Assembly: GCA_903873095.1 (NCBI GenBank)
Contig: CAIQMU010000071.1
Coordinates: forward strand, 1-12,841
Length of the DNA: 12,841 nucleotides
Reading direction: 5' to 3'
Source of the DNA: an uncultured bacterium
Lineage (GTDB): Bacteria; Patescibacteriota; Minisyncoccia; Phycocordibacterales; UBA1006
The notes under the pieces are model-generated. The model saw only the letters and a list, made by a program, of their open reading frames with translations, had not been told where the DNA came from and ran no database searches. Position 1 is the first letter of the stretch, and every line of letters starts with the position of its first letter. Position numbers and translations under genes: made by a program. This document shows, piece by piece, positions 31-9,959 of this stretch.

Positions 31-59
31 TTGACAGAAATATTCTAATATGCTATCCT
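31..59 (+). promoter_or_regulatory. Promoter of the DGR target gene
   Basis: TTGACA at 31-36 and TATCCT at 54-59 are 17 bp apart, with TG at the extended -10 position (51-52). The predicted start of transcription is near 66, giving a 28-nt leader before the ATG at 94. That leader is A-rich and has no Shine-Dalgarno motif. Confidence 0.75.
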
Positions 60-93: not shown

Positions 94-741
94 ATGACGT
101 ATTCAAAAGTAAACGAACTCCTCAATGCAGGTTTTATTTCCGAAGACACTAAAAACGAACTTCGCGAATTGCTTGCCAAGGCAAAGAACGGCGCAACCGA
201 AATCGTGCAAACGATTGCAAAAACGGTAACGAAATTCATCAAGAAAGTCGCTATCGAAAAACAAACGAAGACAATCAACCTGAAGGATTTTTTCACCGCC
301 GGCAAGAAAGACCAGCCGCTCTATATCTGGGACAACTTCAAAGCCGCGCTCGATGATGCAACCAGCGACGAGGTAAACGCCCCAACTGATCCCGATCAGT
401 TTTTCCTCCACGAGACTACCAAGACCGCAGCCGATAACGACGTCATGAACTCTGTAAAGGAGAACATCATCGACCTATCAACCGCGGAAGGGCGCCTCGA
501 AGCCCGCAAGCGTTTCGGCGCACTGGCACACCTCCTTTCAAACCAGCCTACGGGACAGGACGGATATCTCCAAACCAACGGCTACTCAACCATCATCGGA
601 TGGATGAAGCTGAAAAGCGGAAATGTTCTCACTGTGCGCTGCGGCTGGGACGCGGGCGATCGCAGGTGGCGCTGCAATGGCAGCGGGCAGGGCGAGTGGT
701 GTGCGGGGCATCAGTTCTTTTCTCGCAATGGTGAAGCTTAA
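94..741 (+). CDS. DGR target protein with variable C-terminus
   Basis: This is a 215-residue protein with no signal peptide and no membrane segment, so it is probably cytoplasmic. Residues 1-60 are Lys/Glu-rich and predicted helical. Residues 60-175 form an unrecognised acidic domain. Residues 178-213 are encoded by the variable repeat and contain a Cys/Trp/Gly-rich scaffold, CGWDAGDRRW then RWRCNG, ending in HQFFSRNG two residues before the stop. A variable repeat at the extreme C-terminus is the standard position in DGR targets, where the variable residues usually lie on a C-type-lectin-fold binding face. I infer that fold from context and did not recognise it from sequence. The 3' half is markedly more GC-rich than neighbouring genes, partly because A-to-G changes dominate in the VR. 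The start at 94 fits the promoter at 31-59. The ligand is unknown. Confidence 0.8.
   Translation: MTYSKVNELLNAGFISEDTKNELRELLAKAKNGATEIVQTIAKTVTKFIKKVAIEKQTKTINLKDFFTAGKKDQPLYIWDNFKAALDDATSDEVNAPTDPDQFFLHETTKTAADNDVMNSVKENIIDLSTAEGRLEARKRFGALAHLLSNQPTGQDGYLQTNGYSTIIGWMKLKSGNVLTVRCGWDAGDRRWRCNGSGQGEWCAGHQFFSRNGEA
626..732 (+). repeat. DGR variable repeat (VR)
   Basis: This 107-bp segment aligns without gaps to 1056-1162 (constant offset 430). There are 18 mismatches. Sixteen fall where the downstream copy has A (13 A to G, 3 A to C, no A to T). Only two fall elsewhere: T to G at 656 and C to T at 729. The downstream copy has 29 adenines, so about 55% of A sites differ, against 2 of 78 non-A sites. 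Similarity stops abruptly at both ends. Altered codons include AAC to CGC, GGC, GAC and AGC, AAG to AGG and GGG, and TAT to TGT, while the Trp codons and both TGC codons are untouched. This matches adenine-specific mutagenic retrohoming. Confidence 0.88.
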
Positions 742-754
742 AAACTTTACATCT

Positions 755-817
755 GACACTTTGTTCCTTGGATTCTTTGACCCTTGTCAAAAATCCTTGG
801 CACAAGGTGTCTTTTTT
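755..817 (+). terminator. Terminator/inverted repeat downstream of the VR
   Basis: GACACTTTGT (755-764) pairs with ACAAGGTGTC (802-811) with one G-U pair, and extends inward past one mismatch to CC/GG. T residues follow at 812-817, as in an intrinsic terminator. A second hairpin is nested inside: TTTGAC (776-781), loop CCTT, GTCAAA (786-791). Hairpins just 3' of the VR assist target recognition in characterised DGRs, so this element could serve both roles. That second role is inference. Confidence 0.65.
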
Positions 818-1055
818 ATTATCATGAATACTGCACAGTGCGATGTTCGTCGGCCATGGCTTGCGAACCACGGTGCAGGATGAATTGCGAACAGAGTTTC
901 GGCGGAGAAATCTTCCGAGAGAGTTTTGCGAGGAATCCTTGAATATATAAAAACAAACCATTGGTGCGCCGCATCAGAGGACTTCGAAGTCCCGAATAAG
1001 ATACAGCCATTTTCGTGGATACGAAAGGCAGTGGCGCGGACGGCGCGGCGCACAA

Positions 1056-1162
1056 TTCTCACTGTGAACTGCAACTGGAACTCGGACGATCGCAAGTGGA
1101 ACTGCAATGGCAACAAGCAGGGCGAGTGGTATGCGAAGCATCAGTTCTTTTCTCGAAACGGT
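1056..1162 (+). repeat. DGR template repeat (TR)
   Basis: This is the adenine-rich partner of the VR at 626-732. Read in the VR frame it carries AAC five times before the final invariant block, plus AAG three times, at the positions that differ. Scaffold codons (TGC, TGG, GGC, GCG) lack A and are conserved. AAC/AAY enrichment at variable positions is a known TR design feature, because changing both adenines reaches many residues and no stop codon. There is no start or ribosome-binding signal for this copy. Sequence upstream of 1056 has no similarity to the target gene, which argues against a decayed gene duplicate. Confidence 0.85.
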
Positions 1163-1169
1163 TTGTTTT

Positions 1170-1192
1170 CTCCCGATGATCGGGAGTTTTTT
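1170..1192 (+). terminator. Intrinsic terminator after the TR
   Basis: CTCCCG (1170-1175) and CGGGAG (1181-1186) form a 6-bp GC-rich stem with loop ATGAT, extendable by A-T pairs. Six T residues follow at 1187-1192. The orientation ends a plus-strand transcript 30 nt after the TR. There is no T-run for the opposite strand. A 14-bp palindrome, TTTATTCGAATAAA (1190-1203), lies directly after it, just outside the ruvB stop. Confidence 0.8.
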
Positions 1193-1206: not shown

Positions 1207-2205
1207 TTATTCTTTAAAATCAAATCCCAAATGTTCAAACGCGCGTTTGGTGGCACGGCGACCCTGAGGTGTTTTTTCAAGAAGGCCCGTTTGAATCAAA
1301 TAAGGTTCGATGACTTCCTCGATCGTTGCTTCTTCTTCTGATGTTGCAGCAGAAATTGTTTTAACACCAATCGGTCCACCGTTAAACTTTTGAATAATCA
1401 CATCAAGAACATTTCGATCAGCGGCAGTGAGGCCAAGCTCATCAACACCAATTAATGCCAATGCTTTTTTCACAGTATCGAGTGTTATCGATGTCTCGTG
1501 AACTTGCGCATAATCACGAACACGTTTCAGGAAATGATTTGCTGTTCGCGGAGTACTGCGCGCACGTCGTGCGATTTCAATGACTGCATCATCAGGAATT
1601 TCAATCCCAATACGTTTCGCTGATCGTTTGATAATCTCGGCGACTTCTTCATTGGTATAAAATTCAAGTCGGAATGTTCCACCGGAAAATCGTGAACGCA
1701 GAGGCGATGATAGTAATGCCATGCGCGTTGTTGCGGCAACCATCGTAAACGGAGGAAGTTCAAGTTGAATCGTGCGTGCACTTGGCCCTTTGCCAATAAT
1801 AATATCAAGTACGCCGGATTCCATTGCGGGGTAGAGAACTTCCTCGATCATTTTATTAAGGCGATGAATTTCATCAATGAACACAATATCGCCAGGTGCA
1901 AGGTTTGTTAAAATACTTGCCAAATCACCAACTTTTTCAATGGCTGGACCAGATGTTATTTTCATTTGGCGACCTGTTTCCTTGGCAATTAGGTGCGCCA
2001 AGGTTGTTTTACCAAGTCCTGGTGGTCCATAAAAGAGGATGTGTTCTGCGGTATGGCCTCGGACGTCTGCTGCGCCAAGCAAAATCTTCAAGTTTTCCTT
2101 GATTGATTGCTGGCCAATATAATCATCCCAAGAATTCGGGCGCAAATCTGCGTCGAGTTGTTTTGGGGATAAAGGTGTGGATGAAGTGTTTACATCTAAG
2201 CTCAT
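1207..2205 (-). CDS. ruvB: Holliday junction branch migration ATPase RuvB
   Basis: This 332-residue protein is full length for RuvB. RuvB forms hexameric rings that drive RuvA-bound Holliday junction migration during recombinational repair. Visible signatures are the N-terminal LRPNSWDDYIGQ segment, Walker A GPPGLGKTT (60-68), Walker B IVFIDEIHRL (107-116), the sensor-1 region VAATTR followed by LLSSPLRSRF with the arginine finger, and the C-terminal winged helix with NGGPIGVKTIS and TPQGRRAT. The loop after SRF (SGGTF) is about one residue longer than the usual DRFGIVQ form. The start is fixed by an extended -10 box whose predicted +1 is the A of this ATG, so no ribosome-binding site is possible. 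The gene converges on the DGR region, and ruvA and ruvC are not adjacent. No clear terminator follows its stop. Confidence 0.97.
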   Translation of the reverse strand: MSLDVNTSSTPLSPKQLDADLRPNSWDDYIGQQSIKENLKILLGAADVRGHTAEHILFYGPPGLGKTTLAHLIAKETGRQMKITSGPAIEKVGDLASILTNLAPGDIVFIDEIHRLNKMIEEVLYPAMESGVLDIIIGKGPSARTIQLELPPFTMVAATTRMALLSSPLRSRFSGGTFRLEFYTNEEVAEIIKRSAKRIGIEIPDDAVIEIARRARSTPRTANHFLKRVRDYAQVHETSITLDTVKKALALIGVDELGLTAADRNVLDVIIQKFNGGPIGVKTISAATSEEEATIEEVIEPYLIQTGLLEKTPQGRRATKRAFEHLGFDFKE

Positions 2206-2818: not shown

Positions 2819-4993
2819 TTACACCACTTCCCGCGTCATGTTTTCTATGGTGCTTCGAATCGTTCCGAGTTTTTCAGCCACTGACATACTCGGATTTTTT
2901 TGTTGCTCGATTTCCAAATCATGTAAATCGTTCACAAGAGATTCAATTTGTGATTTTACGGCAACACTCGGATTAGTAGTTCCAAACAATGATTCAAGAT
3001 TTGGTGTGTTTTCCAAAATAGAGAGAATCATGTGTTGTGCGCGTGCGATCTTGTCAGAAATTCCAACAGAGTTATTTGTGTGATCCATTGATTCAAGAAG
3101 TTTCAAGTAATCAACAAGTAAAGAAATTTCTTCACCGTGTCCGACATCCTCCCCTTTATAAGGGGAGGTGCCGAGGCTCTGCGAGGCGGAGGGGTCTGAA
3201 TGTTTCACAGAAGTTTTAACCCCTCCGTCGCGCTCGATGCCATCGCGCGCCACCTCCCCTTGGTAAGGGGAGGATCCCGCACCATCCGCATCAACATCAT
3301 CACTAAGGTCTACAATACTTTGAATTTCATCAAACGATGTAACACCTGTTAGGATTTTAATAACTCCATCCTCGATCATGGTAAATATTCCTTGATGTTC
3401 CGCTGCGCGTTTAACTTCACGATCGGTTGGAGGGGGGGTTTTCGTCATGATGTTTGCAATAACATCATCTGTTAAAATTGCCTCAAACAAACCAATACGT
3501 CCTTTAAATCCATTATTACACTGGTCACATCCAACCGGTTCATAGGTCACAAAAGCCATATCAGATGTAATATTATAACTCTTATAATCTTTACCAATAT
3601 CTTCGGCGTGTTTAATAATTCTGCGGAGAACTGCTGTTTTTTCAGCACTGAGAGGTGTTTCTTTTTTACAAACAGGACAAAGCTTGCGAGTCATTCGTTG
3701 CCCAATCGAAACAGTAAGTGCTGCTGCAAGAATCCCTGGTTGAATTCCGAGATCAAGAAGTCTTGGAATGGTTCCCGCGGCACTGTTCGTGTGCAATGTC
3801 GAGAACACCATGTGACCCGTAAGCGATGCGTTGATCGCAATCGTTGCGGTTTCCTTGTCACGGATTTCTCCAACCATGATCACGTCCGGGTCTTGACGAA
3901 GTGCTGCACGAAGTCCTGCAAGGAAATCAAATCCTTTATCGTGCGAAACTTGTTCCTGAGTAATTCCCGGAAGATGATATTCAATCGGGTCTTCAATCGT
4001 AATGATTTTAATTTCCGGATCGTAAATCTTTTTCAAGAATGAGTAGAGTGTTGTTGTTTTTCCTGAACCTGTCGGACCTGTTGTCAAAATCATTCCGTTT
4101 GGTTTTGCAATTTCACGTTCAAAAATTTTAAATAATTTTGGCTCAATACCAAGTTTTTCAAAATCAACCGCAAGACCTTCAGGGTTTAGAATACGAAGTA
4201 CGATCGATTCTTGATAGGCACCCGGCGCAACAGCAACACGAACTTCAATCTCGGTTCCTTTGTAAATAATGGTGAAACGTCCGTCTTGGGCAATTTCACT
4301 GTTCGACAATTTCATCCCTGAAATAAATTTCACACGGTTTAATAGTCGTCCATAAAGTGCTGGATCCATTTGAATAATTTCTTGAAGCACTCCATCTTCA
4401 CGAAGGCGCAAACGAACAAATGTTTCTTCCGGTTCAAGGTGAACATCAGACGATTTCAGTGCAATCGCAGAACCGAAAATCGTTTCCATGATTTGTGAAA
4501 TTTCATGGTTGTCTTTTTTTTCAAAAATATCAGCAAGTCGTGTTTTTACATCATCGTTTATGTGAACGTTGGCTGCAATTTCTTGAAGTGCTGCATCAGA
4601 AATATCAAGGAGACCTCCTCGAGAAACTTCAGATGCGGAAATATCGGCGTAACGCCCCCATGCTTTGTCCAAACTACGCTTTGATACCATAAACAGGTTT
4701 GTTTGGTAGCCTAATCCTTCGAGTCGTGAAAGTTCTGAAATAGCCGTTTCGTTTGTAGGAGATTTTACTGCAATATCAAGTTTTTTACCTACCATGGCGT
4801 ACGCTGCCATCTCGGCTTTCTTGGCAGTTTGTTCATCAACAAGGCGCAAGGCATCAGTATTTATACTAAGTCCTGTAAGGTCCTGATAGGGAATTCCAAT
4901 TTTATCAGCAGTATTTTGCGTAAAAGACTCCTCCTCGCCTGTGCGGAGGTCTGTTATCAATTTATCCTGTTCGTCGTCATGATAAATGGTCAT
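2819..4993 (-). CDS. PilB/GspE-family assembly ATPase with C-terminal extension
   Basis: This is a 724-residue hexameric ATPase of the type that powers type IV pilus or type II-like secretion assembly at the inner face of the membrane. An N-terminal domain (about 35-115) is followed by the T2SSE core: SSDVHLEP (181-188), Walker A GPTGSGKTTT (306-315), Asp box ITIEDPIEY (331-339), Walker B VIMVGEIRD (371-379), His box STLHTN (398-403), and a zinc-binding tetracysteine C439/C442 and C489/C492, typical of PilB/GspE and absent from PilT. The family normally ends near residue 565 here. The remaining 160 residues are extra. About 573-617 are encoded by two inverted copies of a dispersed repeat, and 618-724 are predicted helical and unrecognised. 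No pilin or pilC neighbour is present, so pilus and secretion roles cannot be separated. Confidence 0.92.
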   Translation of the reverse strand: MTIYHDDEQDKLITDLRTGEEESFTQNTADKIGIPYQDLTGLSINTDALRLVDEQTAKKAEMAAYAMVGKKLDIAVKSPTNETAISELSRLEGLGYQTNLFMVSKRSLDKAWGRYADISASEVSRGGLLDISDAALQEIAANVHINDDVKTRLADIFEKKDNHEISQIMETIFGSAIALKSSDVHLEPEETFVRLRLREDGVLQEIIQMDPALYGRLLNRVKFISGMKLSNSEIAQDGRFTIIYKGTEIEVRVAVAPGAYQESIVLRILNPEGLAVDFEKLGIEPKLFKIFEREIAKPNGMILTTGPTGSGKTTTLYSFLKKIYDPEIKIITIEDPIEYHLPGITQEQVSHDKGFDFLAGLRAALRQDPDVIMVGEIRDKETATIAINASLTGHMVFSTLHTNSAAGTIPRLLDLGIQPGILAAALTVSIGQRMTRKLCPVCKKETPLSAEKTAVLRRIIKHAEDIGKDYKSYNITSDMAFVTYEPVGCDQCNNGFKGRIGLFEAILTDDVIANIMTKTPPPTDREVKRAAEHQGIFTMIEDGVIKILTGVTSFDEIQSIVDLSDDVDADGAGSSPYQGEVARDGIERDGGVKTSVKHSDPSASQSLGTSPYKGEDVGHGEEISLLVDYLKLLESMDHTNNSVGISDKIARAQHMILSILENTPNLESLFGTTNPSVAVKSQIESLVNDLHDLEIEQQKNPSMSVAEKLGTIRSTIENMTREVV
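3147..3195 (+). repeat. Dispersed two-hairpin repeat, copy A (in pilB-like gene)
   Basis: The left hairpin is CCTCCCCTT-TAT-AAGGGGAGG. It is followed by a variable GC-rich middle and the right end CGGAGGGGT. It lies in frame in the pilB-like gene and encodes DPSASQSLGTSPYKGED on the minus strand. It is strongly GC-rich within an AT-rich gene. Confidence 0.8.
3219..3274 (-). repeat. Dispersed two-hairpin repeat, copy B (inverted)
   Basis: This has the same architecture as copy A in opposite orientation, with left hairpin loop ACC and a middle hairpin built on CGATG/CATCG. It encodes SSPYQGEVARDGIERDGG in frame. Copies A and B are separated by 23 bp and form a large inverted pair. Confidence 0.8.
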
Positions 4994-5155: not shown

Positions 5156-6427
5156 ATGAAAAACACAAAAATTCTCCCAATGCTCTTTGTAGTATTACTA
5201 TTAAGTATCACTACCAAAGCCCAACTCGTATCCTACAATGGCCAAGATGGCGAAAATGAAAATGCTGTCAATGAAACTCCACAAGAGATCATAGATAGAA
5301 CTATCAACCACAAGGCAAGCGCTCGCCTCGTGCCCTACAAAGAATGCTCGAGAGAGACATTCCAAAAGGCTCTGAATGGCCCAGTCGGCTCTGTTGAAAA
5401 AAGCGATATGATCGCATGGATCAACAGGGTAAACAATCTCGAACATGCTGCTACTTTTAATGGAAGCTATGTGATCACAACAGATGCAGAGGCGACTCGG
5501 TTTCTAAAAAATCACCTGATTCTCATTAATAATGATGGCAAGGAGTACGTTTTTAAAGGCCTGGACTATAAGCTAAATAGTCAAAAGACCGGCGAGATCA
5601 AAAGAGGCCCCTATGCTTCCAAAAAGGAAAAAGAGATGTGGTTCGCACTTGGAAATTTCAGTTCAGGACATAATCATCCTGGTGGAAGTGCTATGTGCGG
5701 CAATACTTTTGCCTCTGATCAGTCTGGTGCATCAAGTACTCAAGCATCACCAAAAACATTTGGTGAGAAAGAGTATAAAGGTGAACAGCAATCAGCTCAA
5801 CAAAAACAGATGAGCCCAAAAGCTCAAAAGTTTTTCAAGGACGCAGCTGCATCTGCTGATGCACAAACTGCACAAGGTTTAAGTACTGCAACCCCGGTCA
5901 TTGTTAATAATTTTAACTATGTCGAGGGAGCTACTGCCAAAATTGACCGGTCAGGTAATTCTGATGCTCGTGCGATGGCAACATCGCCATCTTCTGGTGC
6001 GGTTGTACCAGTTGCTGTAACACCGGTTCCACAACCAGTAGCACCTGGATACAATCCTAATGATTGGGGTCCTGGACAACAAACGGTTTCAACTACAAGG
6101 GTTGCTCCGGGTTATAACCAAAATGCTCAAGGTGGTTACACTGATCCGTATGGTGCAAGTGATAATGCTTACCTTAAACGGACTGCGAATGCAACAACTG
6201 CAACCGCGGTAGGTACATTCCTTGGTGTTATAACAAACGCGGTAACCGGTGGTATGACAGTTAATGCTTTGCGTCACCAACCTGCTCCAAGTAATAACTA
6301 TTATTACAATGGTTACAGCAACAACGGCTCAACTTACACCAATAATACTGGTCAAAATTGGACCGGCGGGACACTGGGTAATAATGGTTACAATACCACC
6401 ACAGGGCAAAATTGGACAGGTCAGTAA
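5156..6427 (+). CDS. Secreted Gln/Asn/Tyr-rich protein of unknown function
   Basis: This is a 423-residue exported protein I do not recognise. Residues 1-22 form a signal peptide: KNTK, a hydrophobic core (LPMLFVVLLLSI), then TTKA with likely cleavage before Gln23. Residues about 25-180 look globular and contain two of its few cysteines (KEC and AMC). Residues 185-423 are low complexity, rich in Gln, Ser, Ala, then Asn, Tyr, Thr and Gly. They include two APGYN motifs, a hydrophobic Ala/Gly-rich stretch (about 343-367, TATAVGTFLGVITNAVTGGM) that could be a membrane-interacting or glycine-zipper segment, and two copies of TGQNWTG (398 and 416). The composition suggests an extracellular or cell-wall protein. 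It has its own promoter and terminator and is the first of three adjacent exported proteins. Confidence 0.85.
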   Translation: MKNTKILPMLFVVLLLSITTKAQLVSYNGQDGENENAVNETPQEIIDRTINHKASARLVPYKECSRETFQKALNGPVGSVEKSDMIAWINRVNNLEHAATFNGSYVITTDAEATRFLKNHLILINNDGKEYVFKGLDYKLNSQKTGEIKRGPYASKKEKEMWFALGNFSSGHNHPGGSAMCGNTFASDQSGASSTQASPKTFGEKEYKGEQQSAQQKQMSPKAQKFFKDAAASADAQTAQGLSTATPVIVNNFNYVEGATAKIDRSGNSDARAMATSPSSGAVVPVAVTPVPQPVAPGYNPNDWGPGQQTVSTTRVAPGYNQNAQGGYTDPYGASDNAYLKRTANATTATAVGTFLGVITNAVTGGMTVNALRHQPAPSNNYYYNGYSNNGSTYTNNTGQNWTGGTLGNNGYNTTTGQNWTGQ

Positions 6428-6447
6428 CAAGTTCTTCTAAACTTACA

Positions 6448-6488
6448 GGATCAATTATGTATCGAAAGATAATAATTGATCCCTTTTA
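6448..6488 (+). terminator. Terminator after the Gln/Asn-rich gene
   Basis: GGATCAATTAT (6448-6458) pairs with ATAATTGATCC (6472-6482). After a single bulged G the stem continues as TATC/GATA closed by a GAAA tetraloop (6464-6467). The tail CTTTTATT follows. Confidence 0.75.
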
Positions 6489-6571: not shown

Positions 6572-8677
6572 ATGTATAAAACATTTATTAAAATTGCTGC
6601 AATGTTCGCATTGGTTGCCGTTGTTCTTACAACTGCTTCAAGTGTCTTTGCTGCGGGAACATTCAACGACTCTTCACAGGGCGCTGATTGTCCAACCGTA
6701 ACAGTTGCTCGAAACGGAAACGCTCCGACAACTGGATACGGATGTTGGTTTACGTCTGATACCGCCAAAGTAGGCGATACAGTAACGTTTGCCATTTATT
6801 ATCACAATACAAGTTCATCACCAGTTTCAAATGTTTCGGTGTTTATCCAAAACCCAGGAACAAATACACAGAACTCGTTTACACTTAACGGAGGAATTAA
6901 TGTTAATGGTCAATCGGTTGCAACAGGGTCAGCGACAATCAGTCTTGATTCATCTGCAACACTTGTCCCTGTTCGTGCAACGAATGAATACAATGGAGGT
7001 CTTAACCCCCAGAGTATTTCAACATCTCAGTTGATGGGATCTGGTTACACAGTGGGAACACTTGGTACCGGATGGTCACAACAGGGTGTTGCGAAAATCT
7101 CGTTTATGGTGACCGCAAATGGAACATGTACAACATGTAACACAAACGGTCAGCAGCCTTCTGTTACAACAAATCAGGTTACAAATCTTGATTCAAATAA
7201 CGGAAATGTAACCCTTAATGGATACTTCAATTCAAACGGAGCAGCAACGACAACATCGTTTCAGTACCAGTTGAACGGAGGATCTTGGATTAACGTAGGT
7301 TCAACATCACGAGGAGTTTCAAGTGGAAATATTACATTCCCTTTGACAGGACTCGCAGGTGGAACATATACCTATGAAGCCGTTGCGACAAACTCATACG
7401 GAACCGTTTACGGAAATCCAATGACGTTTACCATTTACGGAAATAACAACACACAGTACTGCCCAAGTGGATATTACGGAACATATCCTAACTGCTATCC
7501 AAACAATAACAATACTCAGTATTGTCCATCAGGATACTATGGTACGTATCCAAATTGTTATCCAAATAATAATAATACCCAATATTGTCCAAGTGGCTAC
7601 TATGGAACATATCCTAACTGCTATCCAGTTAATAACACTCCGGTATGTGGAGTAGGACAGTATCTTTCAGGTAATACATGTGTGTACCAGAACAATAGCT
7701 ATAATAATCAGCCAGCAAGTGTTTCAACATTGGGAACAATCTCAATCGGAGGAACTGTTGCGGTGGTTGATGGATACTACAGTTCACCATCATGTTCAGT
7801 AAATACGTATTTCAATTACGGAACAACCCAGTCAATGGGGCAAACAACAGGTGCGGTTAATCGTGGTGTTGGCTCAGGAAGTATGGCGCAAGCCCTTCAG
7901 AACTTGAATCCTAATACTACGTATTACTATCAAGCAGTAGGTCAGAATTGTTCAGGTTCAAATATTGGATCAGTTCGATCATTTACAACATCTGGAACAA
8001 CAACAAATGACACAACAATCACACACTATGTTACAACAAACACAGGAGGTGGAAATTCATTTATTAAACTTACCGTTGATAATCATCGAGACGTTGTTCA
8101 ACAAGGAGTTGTAACTGATTATGATGTTACATGGACAAACCTCACTGGTAGTGATATTAAAAATTTGGTTTTGGAAGTTAACTTCCCAAGTCAAATGACA
8201 ATCACTAATACAGATCGAGGGGCCATTGAAACTGGTAAATCATCAGTTGTATATCAAATTAGTGATCTTACACCACACCAAACAGACAACATGACCATCT
8301 CAGGACAGATCAATTCTGGACTTAAAGATGGAGATCCTGTTGTTGCGCAAGGTGTTATGGCCTTCAATAGTCCAAAATCAAGTGCTACTGAAAATGCAAT
8401 TGCATATGATGCAGATACATTTTCAACAGGAACCTCGGTTCTTGGTGCTTCGATCTTCGGACTTGGCTTCTTGCCTAACTCGCTTGCAGGATGGTTGATT
8501 ATCATCTTGATCATCTTGATCATTGTGTTGATTGCTCGCCATTTCTGGAATCGTCCACAGCAGACAAATATGATTGTTCATACACCTGTTGCACCGACAC
8601 CGGTTGCACAGCCGACAGTCATTACGGGTGCACCAACAGGAGAATACACTGTGTATCAGCCTACTCCAAAACAGTAA
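6572..8677 (+). CDS. Large surface protein with Cys repeats and C-terminal anchor
   Basis: This 701-residue protein has a Sec signal peptide (1-27, ending SSVFA). Residues about 60-195 resemble a DUF11/CARDB-like beta domain (VGDTVTFAIYYHN). A fibronectin-like stretch (about 195-290) follows. Residues 291-352 contain three near-identical 21-residue repeats, each with a C-x10-C pair, and a fourth divergent C-x10-C unit (CGVGQYLSGNTC) comes next. Another beta domain (about 375-475) precedes a second DUF11-like domain (about 502-605). A 19-residue hydrophobic helix starting at Trp641 (WLIIILIILIIVLIARHFW) anchors it, leaving a roughly 40-residue Pro/Thr-rich tail. The topology implies an exposed stalk-like protein. 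Its function (adhesion, S-layer or host contact) is not shown by sequence. It has its own promoter and terminator. Confidence 0.9.
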   Translation: MYKTFIKIAAMFALVAVVLTTASSVFAAGTFNDSSQGADCPTVTVARNGNAPTTGYGCWFTSDTAKVGDTVTFAIYYHNTSSSPVSNVSVFIQNPGTNTQNSFTLNGGINVNGQSVATGSATISLDSSATLVPVRATNEYNGGLNPQSISTSQLMGSGYTVGTLGTGWSQQGVAKISFMVTANGTCTTCNTNGQQPSVTTNQVTNLDSNNGNVTLNGYFNSNGAATTTSFQYQLNGGSWINVGSTSRGVSSGNITFPLTGLAGGTYTYEAVATNSYGTVYGNPMTFTIYGNNNTQYCPSGYYGTYPNCYPNNNNTQYCPSGYYGTYPNCYPNNNNTQYCPSGYYGTYPNCYPVNNTPVCGVGQYLSGNTCVYQNNSYNNQPASVSTLGTISIGGTVAVVDGYYSSPSCSVNTYFNYGTTQSMGQTTGAVNRGVGSGSMAQALQNLNPNTTYYYQAVGQNCSGSNIGSVRSFTTSGTTTNDTTITHYVTTNTGGGNSFIKLTVDNHRDVVQQGVVTDYDVTWTNLTGSDIKNLVLEVNFPSQMTITNTDRGAIETGKSSVVYQISDLTPHQTDNMTISGQINSGLKDGDPVVAQGVMAFNSPKSSATENAIAYDADTFSTGTSVLGASIFGLGFLPNSLAGWLIIILIILIIVLIARHFWNRPQQTNMIVHTPVAPTPVAQPTVITGAPTGEYTVYQPTPKQ
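7442..7630 (+). repeat. Three 63-bp tandem repeats in the surface protein
   Basis: The units are 7442-7504, 7505-7567 and 7568-7630. The encoded 21-residue unit starts NNNTQYCPSGYYG and is identical in all three copies except the last residue of unit 3 (Val for Asn). The DNA differs: units 1 and 2 use different codons at 13 of 21 positions, including AGT against TCA for serine. Confidence 0.95.
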
Positions 8678-8728: not shown

Positions 8729-8756
8729 AAAAACCCCGCAAGGGGTTTTTGTTTTT
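8729..8756 (+). terminator. Terminator of the 701-residue surface protein
   Basis: AAAAACCCC (8729-8737) and GGGGTTTTT (8742-8750) form a 9-bp stem around a GCAA tetraloop, followed by G and five T residues. The last two T residues are also the start of the next gene's -35 box. Confidence 0.9.
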
Positions 8757-8783
8757 GACAAGTGTTGTAGGGGGGGCTATACT
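8755..8783 (+). promoter_or_regulatory. Promoter of the Ig-like anchored protein
   Basis: TTGACA (8755-8760) and TATACT (8778-8783) are 17 bp apart. Predicted +1 is 8790, with a 46-nt leader and no Shine-Dalgarno motif. The -35 overlaps the T-tract of the preceding terminator. Confidence 0.8.
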
Positions 8784-9884: not shown

Positions 9885-9910
9885 AAACCCCGCAAGGGGT
9901 TTTTGTTTTT
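9885..9910 (+). terminator. Terminator of the Ig-like protein gene
   Basis: AAACCCC (9885-9891), GCAA loop, GGGGTTT (9896-9902), then TTG and five T residues. It is almost the same sequence as the terminator at 8729-8756. Confidence 0.88.
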
Positions 9911-9917
9911 GTTCGAA

Positions 9918-9959
9918 TCCTCCCCTTGATAAGGGGAGGTGCCCGCAGGGCGGAGGGGT
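9918..9959 (+). repeat. Dispersed two-hairpin repeat, copy C (intergenic)
   Basis: This is the shortest copy, 42 bp: CCTCCCCTT-GAT-AAGGGGAGG, then GCCC-GCA-GGGC, then CGGAGGGGT. It fills the gap between the preceding terminator and the tsaE -10 box. Its final T is the T of the extended -10 TG. Confidence 0.85.

Follow-up and report, generated by a model that had tools for sequence, protein, structure and literature searches.

The closest described systems to the element analysed here are the diversity-generating retroelements (DGRs) of Patescibacteria, or candidate phyla radiation (CPR), and the DGR of Bordetella phage BPP-1. In the latter, which consists of the reverse transcriptase (RT) bRT, the protein Avd, a template repeat (TR) and the target gene mtd, avd lies 5' of the TR and a structured spacer 3' of the TR recruits the bRT-Avd complex, according to PMC12875486. 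The DNA under study ('the window') is the entire 12,841-nucleotide contig C71 of G000, a patescibacterial genome assembly of 657 kb in 122 contigs that is 91% complete. Near its start lies what is, judged from its sequence, close to certainly a DGR cassette: a gene for a variable protein (VP) that carries a variable repeat (VR), followed by a TR. It obeys the same TR/VR logic as the BPP-1 element, and the Avd of its genome is of the same family. It differs from BPP-1 in that conserved structure is found 5' of the TR, a terminator-like hairpin follows the TR, and the avd genes of related loci are antisense.

Patescibacterial DGRs of clade 2, as presented by Roux et al. 2021 (PMC8144416), share with this locus the host group, a cellular target without recognisable domains and the adenine signature; the RTs reported below may belong to that clade. 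Relatives of the window have both RT and Avd, whereas its own cassette has no adjoining RT. The survey itself says that DGRs whose VR is located away from the RT would escape it.

RT-less and remote DGR parts are already known from three reports (PMC4372165, PMC10907252, PMC4891356). In the first, partial DGRs of Nanoarchaeota likewise consist of a target gene with a VR and cis elements but no RT; unlike these, the window's cassette has its own TR and a leader RNA. In the second, incomplete and remote loci of Thiohalocapsa PB-PSB1 were inferred to be active in trans without a full set of parts, and the targets that they act on in trans correspond to a TR at a different locus. In the present genome no VR matches any TR but the one beside it, so that what the loci would share is the RT and not the TR. 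What is new is thus not the RT-less or remote kind of DGR but satellites with their own TRs that are tied to a common 5' leader RNA. This arrangement was not met among the papers listed in the literature searched, at the level of titles and abstract openings and with most subscription journals outside its scope. We consider it reasonably probable, though well short of assured, that the window carries such an RT-less satellite cassette, served in trans by an Avd-RT complex from elsewhere in the genome.

An adenine-specific repeat pair

The VR (626-732) and the TR (1056-1162) are two 107-base copies at an offset of 430 that differ at 18 sites. Sixteen of the differences fall on the 29 adenines of the TR and two on its 78 other bases (Fisher p = 1.8e-9), which reproduces every count given in a preliminary description of the window. 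The parts of the cassette and the adjoining gene are as follows.

31 to 59, forward strand: candidate sigma-70-like promoter for the VP gene (TTGACA-17-TATCCT, with TG before the -10 element), a consensus match only
94 to 741, forward strand: VP gene, 215 amino acids; open reading frame (ORF) with C-terminal likeness to VPs of other DGR loci
626 to 732, forward strand: VR at the 3' end of the VP gene, from repeat search, pair comparison and masked-TR match
795 to 811, forward strand: terminator-like hairpins after the VP gene, from a sequence scan
797 to 825, forward strand: promoter-like site (TTGGCA-17-TATCAT), a candidate start of the TR RNA and a consensus match only
959 to 1058, forward strand: conserved leader RNA directly 5' of the TR, from a covariance match, covariation and fold z-score
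1056 to 1162, forward strand: non-coding TR, from repeat search, pair comparison and masked-TR match
1170 to 1186, forward strand: terminator-like hairpin directly after the TR, from a sequence scan; recurs in relatives
1207 to 2205, reverse strand: ruvB (PF05496/PF05491 and synteny), a chromosomal neighbour at the place of avd and RT in complete relatives

The changes at TR adenines are A>G in 13 cases and A>C in three; the two off-adenine differences are T>G and C>T. With one exception (726, a third codon position), the 16 adenine changes affect first or second codon positions in the VP gene. The VR covers codons 178-213 of the ORF. It is therefore situated at the gene's 3' end, as had been claimed, but it stops two codons short and is not literally the last 36 codons. 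The gene, which the preliminary description calls expressed, may be transcribed from the promoter-like site at 31-59. The copies share an identical stretch of 18 bases (708-725 and 1138-1155), and when the pair is extended to 109 bases it has 20 mismatches, two of them off-adenine.

An unguided repeat search of the window recovers the same pair as its second repeat family, D2. The preliminary description had proposed aligning the TR with all genes to find further VRs; an adenine-masked TR, allowed up to three mismatches, matches only the VR and TR sites among the 122 contigs, and a shorter pattern agrees. The lack of A>T changes (none of 16 in the 107-base pair, one of 18 in the 109-base pair) was considered as a meaningful feature and rejected, because A>G is the commonest change when 129 pairs are pooled (1213 G, 539 T and 402 C) and because five of the 122 pairs with at least ten changes also have no A>T.

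Ordinary duplication followed by biased divergence or gene conversion is a negligible prospect. Beyond the existence of two copies nothing speaks for it, and 16 of the 18 changes sit at the adenines of one copy. Moreover, among 100 related complete pairs 1719 of 1809 mismatches are at TR adenines, a count made with a pair finder that scores adenine mismatches more kindly, in all groups alike.

A conserved leader RNA

The sequence directly 5' of the TR folds into a closing helix P1 (964-972/1045-1053), a hairpin P2 (979-983/988-992) and a helix P3 with a UAC/GUG base, with a fold z-score of -2.97. When six leaders are aligned with MAFFT, 93% of cells pair, and covariation is 0.808 against 0.317 in shuffles, although the structure tested was drawn from those same six sequences. 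The signal is destroyed when pairing partners are slid. A covariance model, R1, was built from six sequences that include the window's, and all six are among the R1 matches counted here. The window leader receives the best score of all, 95.2 bits, yet it is a training sequence.

R1 has matches in seven of the 20 genomes of the family, six of which contributed to its training set, and in 128 of a sample of 397 genomes of the order. For 92 leader matches, aligned so as to fit the model, covariation reaches 0.709, compared with 0.249 +/- 0.008 after shuffling, and cells changed on both sides number 603 against 166. This covariation across relatives supports the earlier statement that the downstream copy lies in structured RNA. 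Rfam gives no match at E <= 1 in positions 1-2400 of the window; on the loci of seven relatives it reports tRNA alone at the gathering score and nothing for the leader. R1 finds no match in three genomes of the same genus (G002 to G004), yet G002 possesses two complete DGRs with a diverged leader.

The leader is probably the element by which the Avd-RT complex recognises the TR RNA. Similarity of leaders within a genome was looked at as a sign of co-adaptation with the RT and gave none: mean identity is 0.65 for 27 same-genome pairs and 0.63 for random pairs.

Related loci and free-standing cassettes

RVT_1 frames are present in 11 of the 20 family genomes. An adenine-tolerant search pairs VR and TR at nine family loci, the window's included, and in each of them most mismatches are at TR adenines. 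Complete family loci have the order VP gene with VR, terminator, leader, TR, terminator, antisense avd and RT. An alignment of six RTs contains the motifs YADD and LGNLTSQ; the pattern xGxxxSQ marks DGR RTs. The RT of G001 has its best PDB sequence match in 8ub7 (E = 3.4e-35), which we take to be bRT.

The wider comparison covers 140 leader loci: those of the family and, among the order matches listed, the stronger ones whose DNA was taken. A locus is counted as complete if an ORF matching the RT profile starts 0-900 nt and ends more than 1100 nt downstream of the leader. By this measure 104 loci are complete, all with an avd match; 26 are RT-less with at least 1500 nt downstream, and ten lie nearer an end. 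In 94 of the 100 complete pairs there are zero to two off-adenine mismatches, and the window pair has two. Relatives that have avd and RT show the adenine pattern of the window again, together with its order of genes, its leader RNA and its terminator after the TR, which upholds its identification as a DGR TR/VR pair.

Two of the 26 RT-less loci have an RT in pieces, nine show avd or a fragment of either gene, and 15 gave no match to either in the stretch examined. Eleven of these 15 keep a VR/TR pair scoring above 40. Their off-adenine mismatches, as a fraction of all mismatches, are 2/20 in the window, 11/23 in L099, 3/7 in L109, 1/17 in L138, 11/31 in L153, 1/4 in L185, 1/5 in L187, 1/16 in L191, 1/14 in L198, 0/19 in L202 and 0/18 in L214. 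The RT profile was run on 20 genomes, namely G000 and others with RT-less loci, and matches in 13. Eight of the 11 genomes with free-standing cassettes match it elsewhere (G081, G116, G126, G195, G312, G343, G358 and G396), in six cases as one piece without stops; the match in G312 has a stop, and those in G343 are in pieces or have stops. No match to the profile was found in the other three, G000, G006 and G093.

The off-adenine fraction was also tried as a test of activity and rejected, since G006, G093 and G116 give a mixed picture. Purity does not track the presence of an RT; by itself it is no proof of activity, nor does it tell working cassettes from those that died recently.

Some irregular loci were noted in the same survey. 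The DGRs L129 (leader 6361-6463) and L131 possess avd but have an RT frame that is split in two. In G002, the VR and TR of one locus (L048:8110-8237 and about 390 bases downstream) lie on two diagonals with offsets of 392 and 390, which corresponds to a small indel. Two DGR contigs of G005 (L097 and L098) end in the same 30 bases, and part of the avd region of that genome is probably duplicated and collapses in assembly.

A second retroelement in the same genome

The preliminary description had noted that the window contains no RT or Avd-like frame and that ruvB stands at a usual place of an RT. ORFs and profile searches bear this out: neither gave an RT or Avd match beside the TR in the stretch of the window examined, and the complete cis-acting arrangement is not found here. 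The genome-wide search for a DGR-type RT that it had suggested had a divided outcome. The G000 assembly yields no RT with Pfam RVT_1, the G005 RT as query or the six-RT profile. It does yield a second R1 match, at positions 513-608 of contig C72, a 7.5-kb contig with ribosomal protein genes (named from sequence) that also carries a 633-aa VP, VR, TR, leader, terminator-like hairpin and avd. The C72 VR and TR, 139 nt long, have 18 mismatches, of which 17 are at TR adenines.

The avd of C72 is an open frame that matches PF22296 at 47.4 bits (cut-off 40), so that this system does include an Avd. Its score against NF033474 is 64.2 bits, below the cut-off of 80; PHROG names it 'Avd protein of DGR', and a comparison with PDB sequences gave no match. 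Each of the two TRs in G000 matches only itself and its own VR, with no cross-targeting between the loci, which is what two separate templates would show and a single TR serving a distant VR would not. Contig C72 ends in ...CCTCGGG at leader+512 (L096:1-376), where complete loci have a poly-G tract and then the start of the RT. Contig C3 of G165 (L103) ends in GGGGGG at the same tract position. The G tract between avd and RT seems to break assemblies and hide RTs.

Where the missing RT might be

The RT had been said to be upstream, remote or lost. 'Remote' and 'lost' both stand as readings; 'upstream' does not fare well, since all 104 complete loci have their RT downstream of the TR. An RT adjoining the cassette upstream of the VP gene, beyond the contig start, is allowed for by the fact that the contig, and with it the readable sequence, begins 93 bases before that gene. 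However, avd also lies downstream of the TR in the 104 complete loci, and RT-profile matches upstream of the leader number only three in the 140 loci: a neighbouring DGR accounts for two of them, and the third is a weak fragment where a contig ends. Upstream sequence amounted to 3 kb or more in 101 of these loci and to less in 39. An upstream RT is accordingly improbable.

The main rival to a trans-served satellite is a recent fossil, in which avd and RT were lost here, or the cassette was copied without them, diversification has ceased, and the adenine pattern records past activity. We judge this unlikely, though it is the rival to be taken most seriously. It fits the missing RT, and the decayed cassettes in the order, those of G006 and G116, show that such remains exist. 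Partial DGRs of Nanoarchaeota were left open as either fossils or remotely diversified in PMC4372165. Against a fossil, the TR, leader, terminator-like hairpins and VP frame are intact, the two off-adenine mismatches are few, and the same genome retains another DGR, whose avd frame is open.

Several results count against a satellite that is still served in trans. The first is the failure to find any RT in the assembly, which does not settle the matter because the assembly is 91% complete. Leaders from one genome resemble each other no more than random pairs do, so that their identity alone does not point to co-adaptation of leader and RT. A clean cassette (1/14 off-adenine) is found in G093, where no RT was detected, and a decayed one (L153, 11/31) in G116, a genome with an RT; the other decayed cassette (L099, 11/23) is in G006, which is 98% complete and likewise has no detected RT. 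Finally, adenine-only differences would persist for a while after RT loss.

The satellite reading that we nevertheless prefer starts from what is directly observed: the adenine-specific pair, the conserved RNA, the lack of avd and RT beside the cassette, and the second DGR with avd in the assembly. The satellite would comprise a VP gene with its VR and its own TR RNA, made up of structured leader, TR and terminator, without avd or RT. The TR RNA would be made as a separate transcript. On C72, an RT would follow avd beyond the contig end, and the Avd-RT complex would be supplied in trans, most likely from this DGR. Presumably the leader would serve as the recognition element for Avd-RT, which would then copy the TR with errors at adenines; the cDNA would replace the VR and so alter the C-terminal part of the VP. 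The satellite may still be active. Because the RT was not found in the assembly, action in trans is something that we infer.

A poly-G tract between avd and RT

A run of 7-14 Gs lies at leader+380 to +950 in 91 of the 104 complete loci, for example in L052 (reverse strand), L064:1000-1009 and L102:4321-4330; thirteen have none. Outside that stretch, the 140 loci hold nine G or C runs of at least seven in 894 kb. The tract sits where the divergent genes avd and RT have their 5' ends. Read along the avd strand, 91 of 91 loci have an ATG whose frame stays open across the C tract, compared with 43 expected when the 120 upstream bases are shuffled. Of the 90 loci with an avd frame, 26 have such an ATG in frame with it, ten have just an in-frame GTG or TTG, and 54 have no in-frame start upstream; many of these 54 also offer a possible start beyond the tract. 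About a third are therefore in frame, as expected of a slipping tract.

The tract is a candidate phase-variation switch. Homopolymer errors in the assemblies are a real alternative. No phase-variable DGR is described in the titles and abstract openings listed for DGRs with phase variation or homopolymers; in some of these papers the phase variation is that of BPP-1's host, in another that of capsules.

Chromosomal position

The ruvB gene starts 20 bases after the post-TR hairpin, and there is no G tract at the join. Among the 80 relatives' loci kept for comparison, the closest RuvB relatives are from a 'Patescibacteria group bacterium' (92% identity) and Ca. Nomurabacteria (83%), followed by many further Nomurabacteria, in agreement with the earlier placement of the host in the CPR. 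In G003 and G004, ruvB is followed by a gene read as ruvC, and in G002 other genes intervene. R1 finds no leader near ruvB in any of the 80 loci (within 3 kb, less at contig ends). The cassette therefore either was inserted here in this lineage alone or is a misjoin.

If it were a misjoin, the TR would have been joined wrongly to ruvB in assembly and its true avd and RT neighbours cut off. We regard such a chimera as very improbable. DGR loci do break assemblies, as the G-rich ends of C72 and of the G165 contig at the tract attest, and the 80 loci provide no confirmation of the junction from another genome. However, the junction retains the full TR, the post-TR hairpin and 20 more bases before ruvB, without a G tract, and free-standing cassettes occur in other genomes.

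Variable protein, signals and other repeats

Towards its C-terminus the VP resembles VPs encoded at other DGR loci in the order, with 21-24% identity in the aligned part. With the whole protein as query, weak relatives are found in five other genomes of 148 searched, all through this part. The VP matches no Pfam, NCBIfam or PHROG family, and tblastn finds no relatives of it in the genome's contigs. With regard to a C-type-lectin or Ig fold, as looked for in the variable proteins of DGRs, a single-sequence AlphaFold2 model has a mean pLDDT of 39, too poor for a fold search, and a profile of eight VPs gave no credible match among PDB sequences. In related loci the VR ends at most 43 bases from the stop in 123 of 129 cases, a count for which the longest frame was taken and some frames are visibly wrong. 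In 123 of 129 loci the TR is followed by a hairpin of -7 kcal/mol or stronger that has a run of Ts, a count without a shuffled control. Two promoter-like matches are seen in positions 1-1300, where 1.2 are expected in shuffles.

Three other kinds of repeat occur in the window. Tandem 63-base repeats, three in number, lie at 7442-7637 within an ORF of 701 amino acids and encode a Cys/Tyr/Asn-rich unit (QYCPSGYYGTYPNCYP). Short dispersed palindromic repeats are found at 3146-3172, 3251-3277 and 9917-9943 (CCTCCCCTT..AAGGGGAGG). An exact 27-base duplicate is located at 8731-8757 and 9885-9911 (AAACCCCGCAAGGGGTTTTTGTTTTTG).

Implications

RT-centred surveys would miss cassettes of this kind, and the targets per genome are therefore under-counted. 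The covarying leader RNA offers a handle for finding DGR templates without an RT. If the leader is indeed the recognition element, it could also serve to steer a single RT to more than one gene.

A broader possibility, which we put forward tentatively and hold to be somewhat doubtful, is that the DGRs of this order are split and switchable. Satellites with their own TRs would be mutated in trans by one Avd-RT module by way of the common 5' leader, and the module would be toggled by poly-G slippage over the divergent avd and RT starts. A poly-G switch over avd and RT, if real, would explain how a hypermutator is tolerated, and it would appear as tract-length variation in existing reads. If DGRs are split and switchable in this manner, a population would consist of a hypermutating minority and a stable majority.
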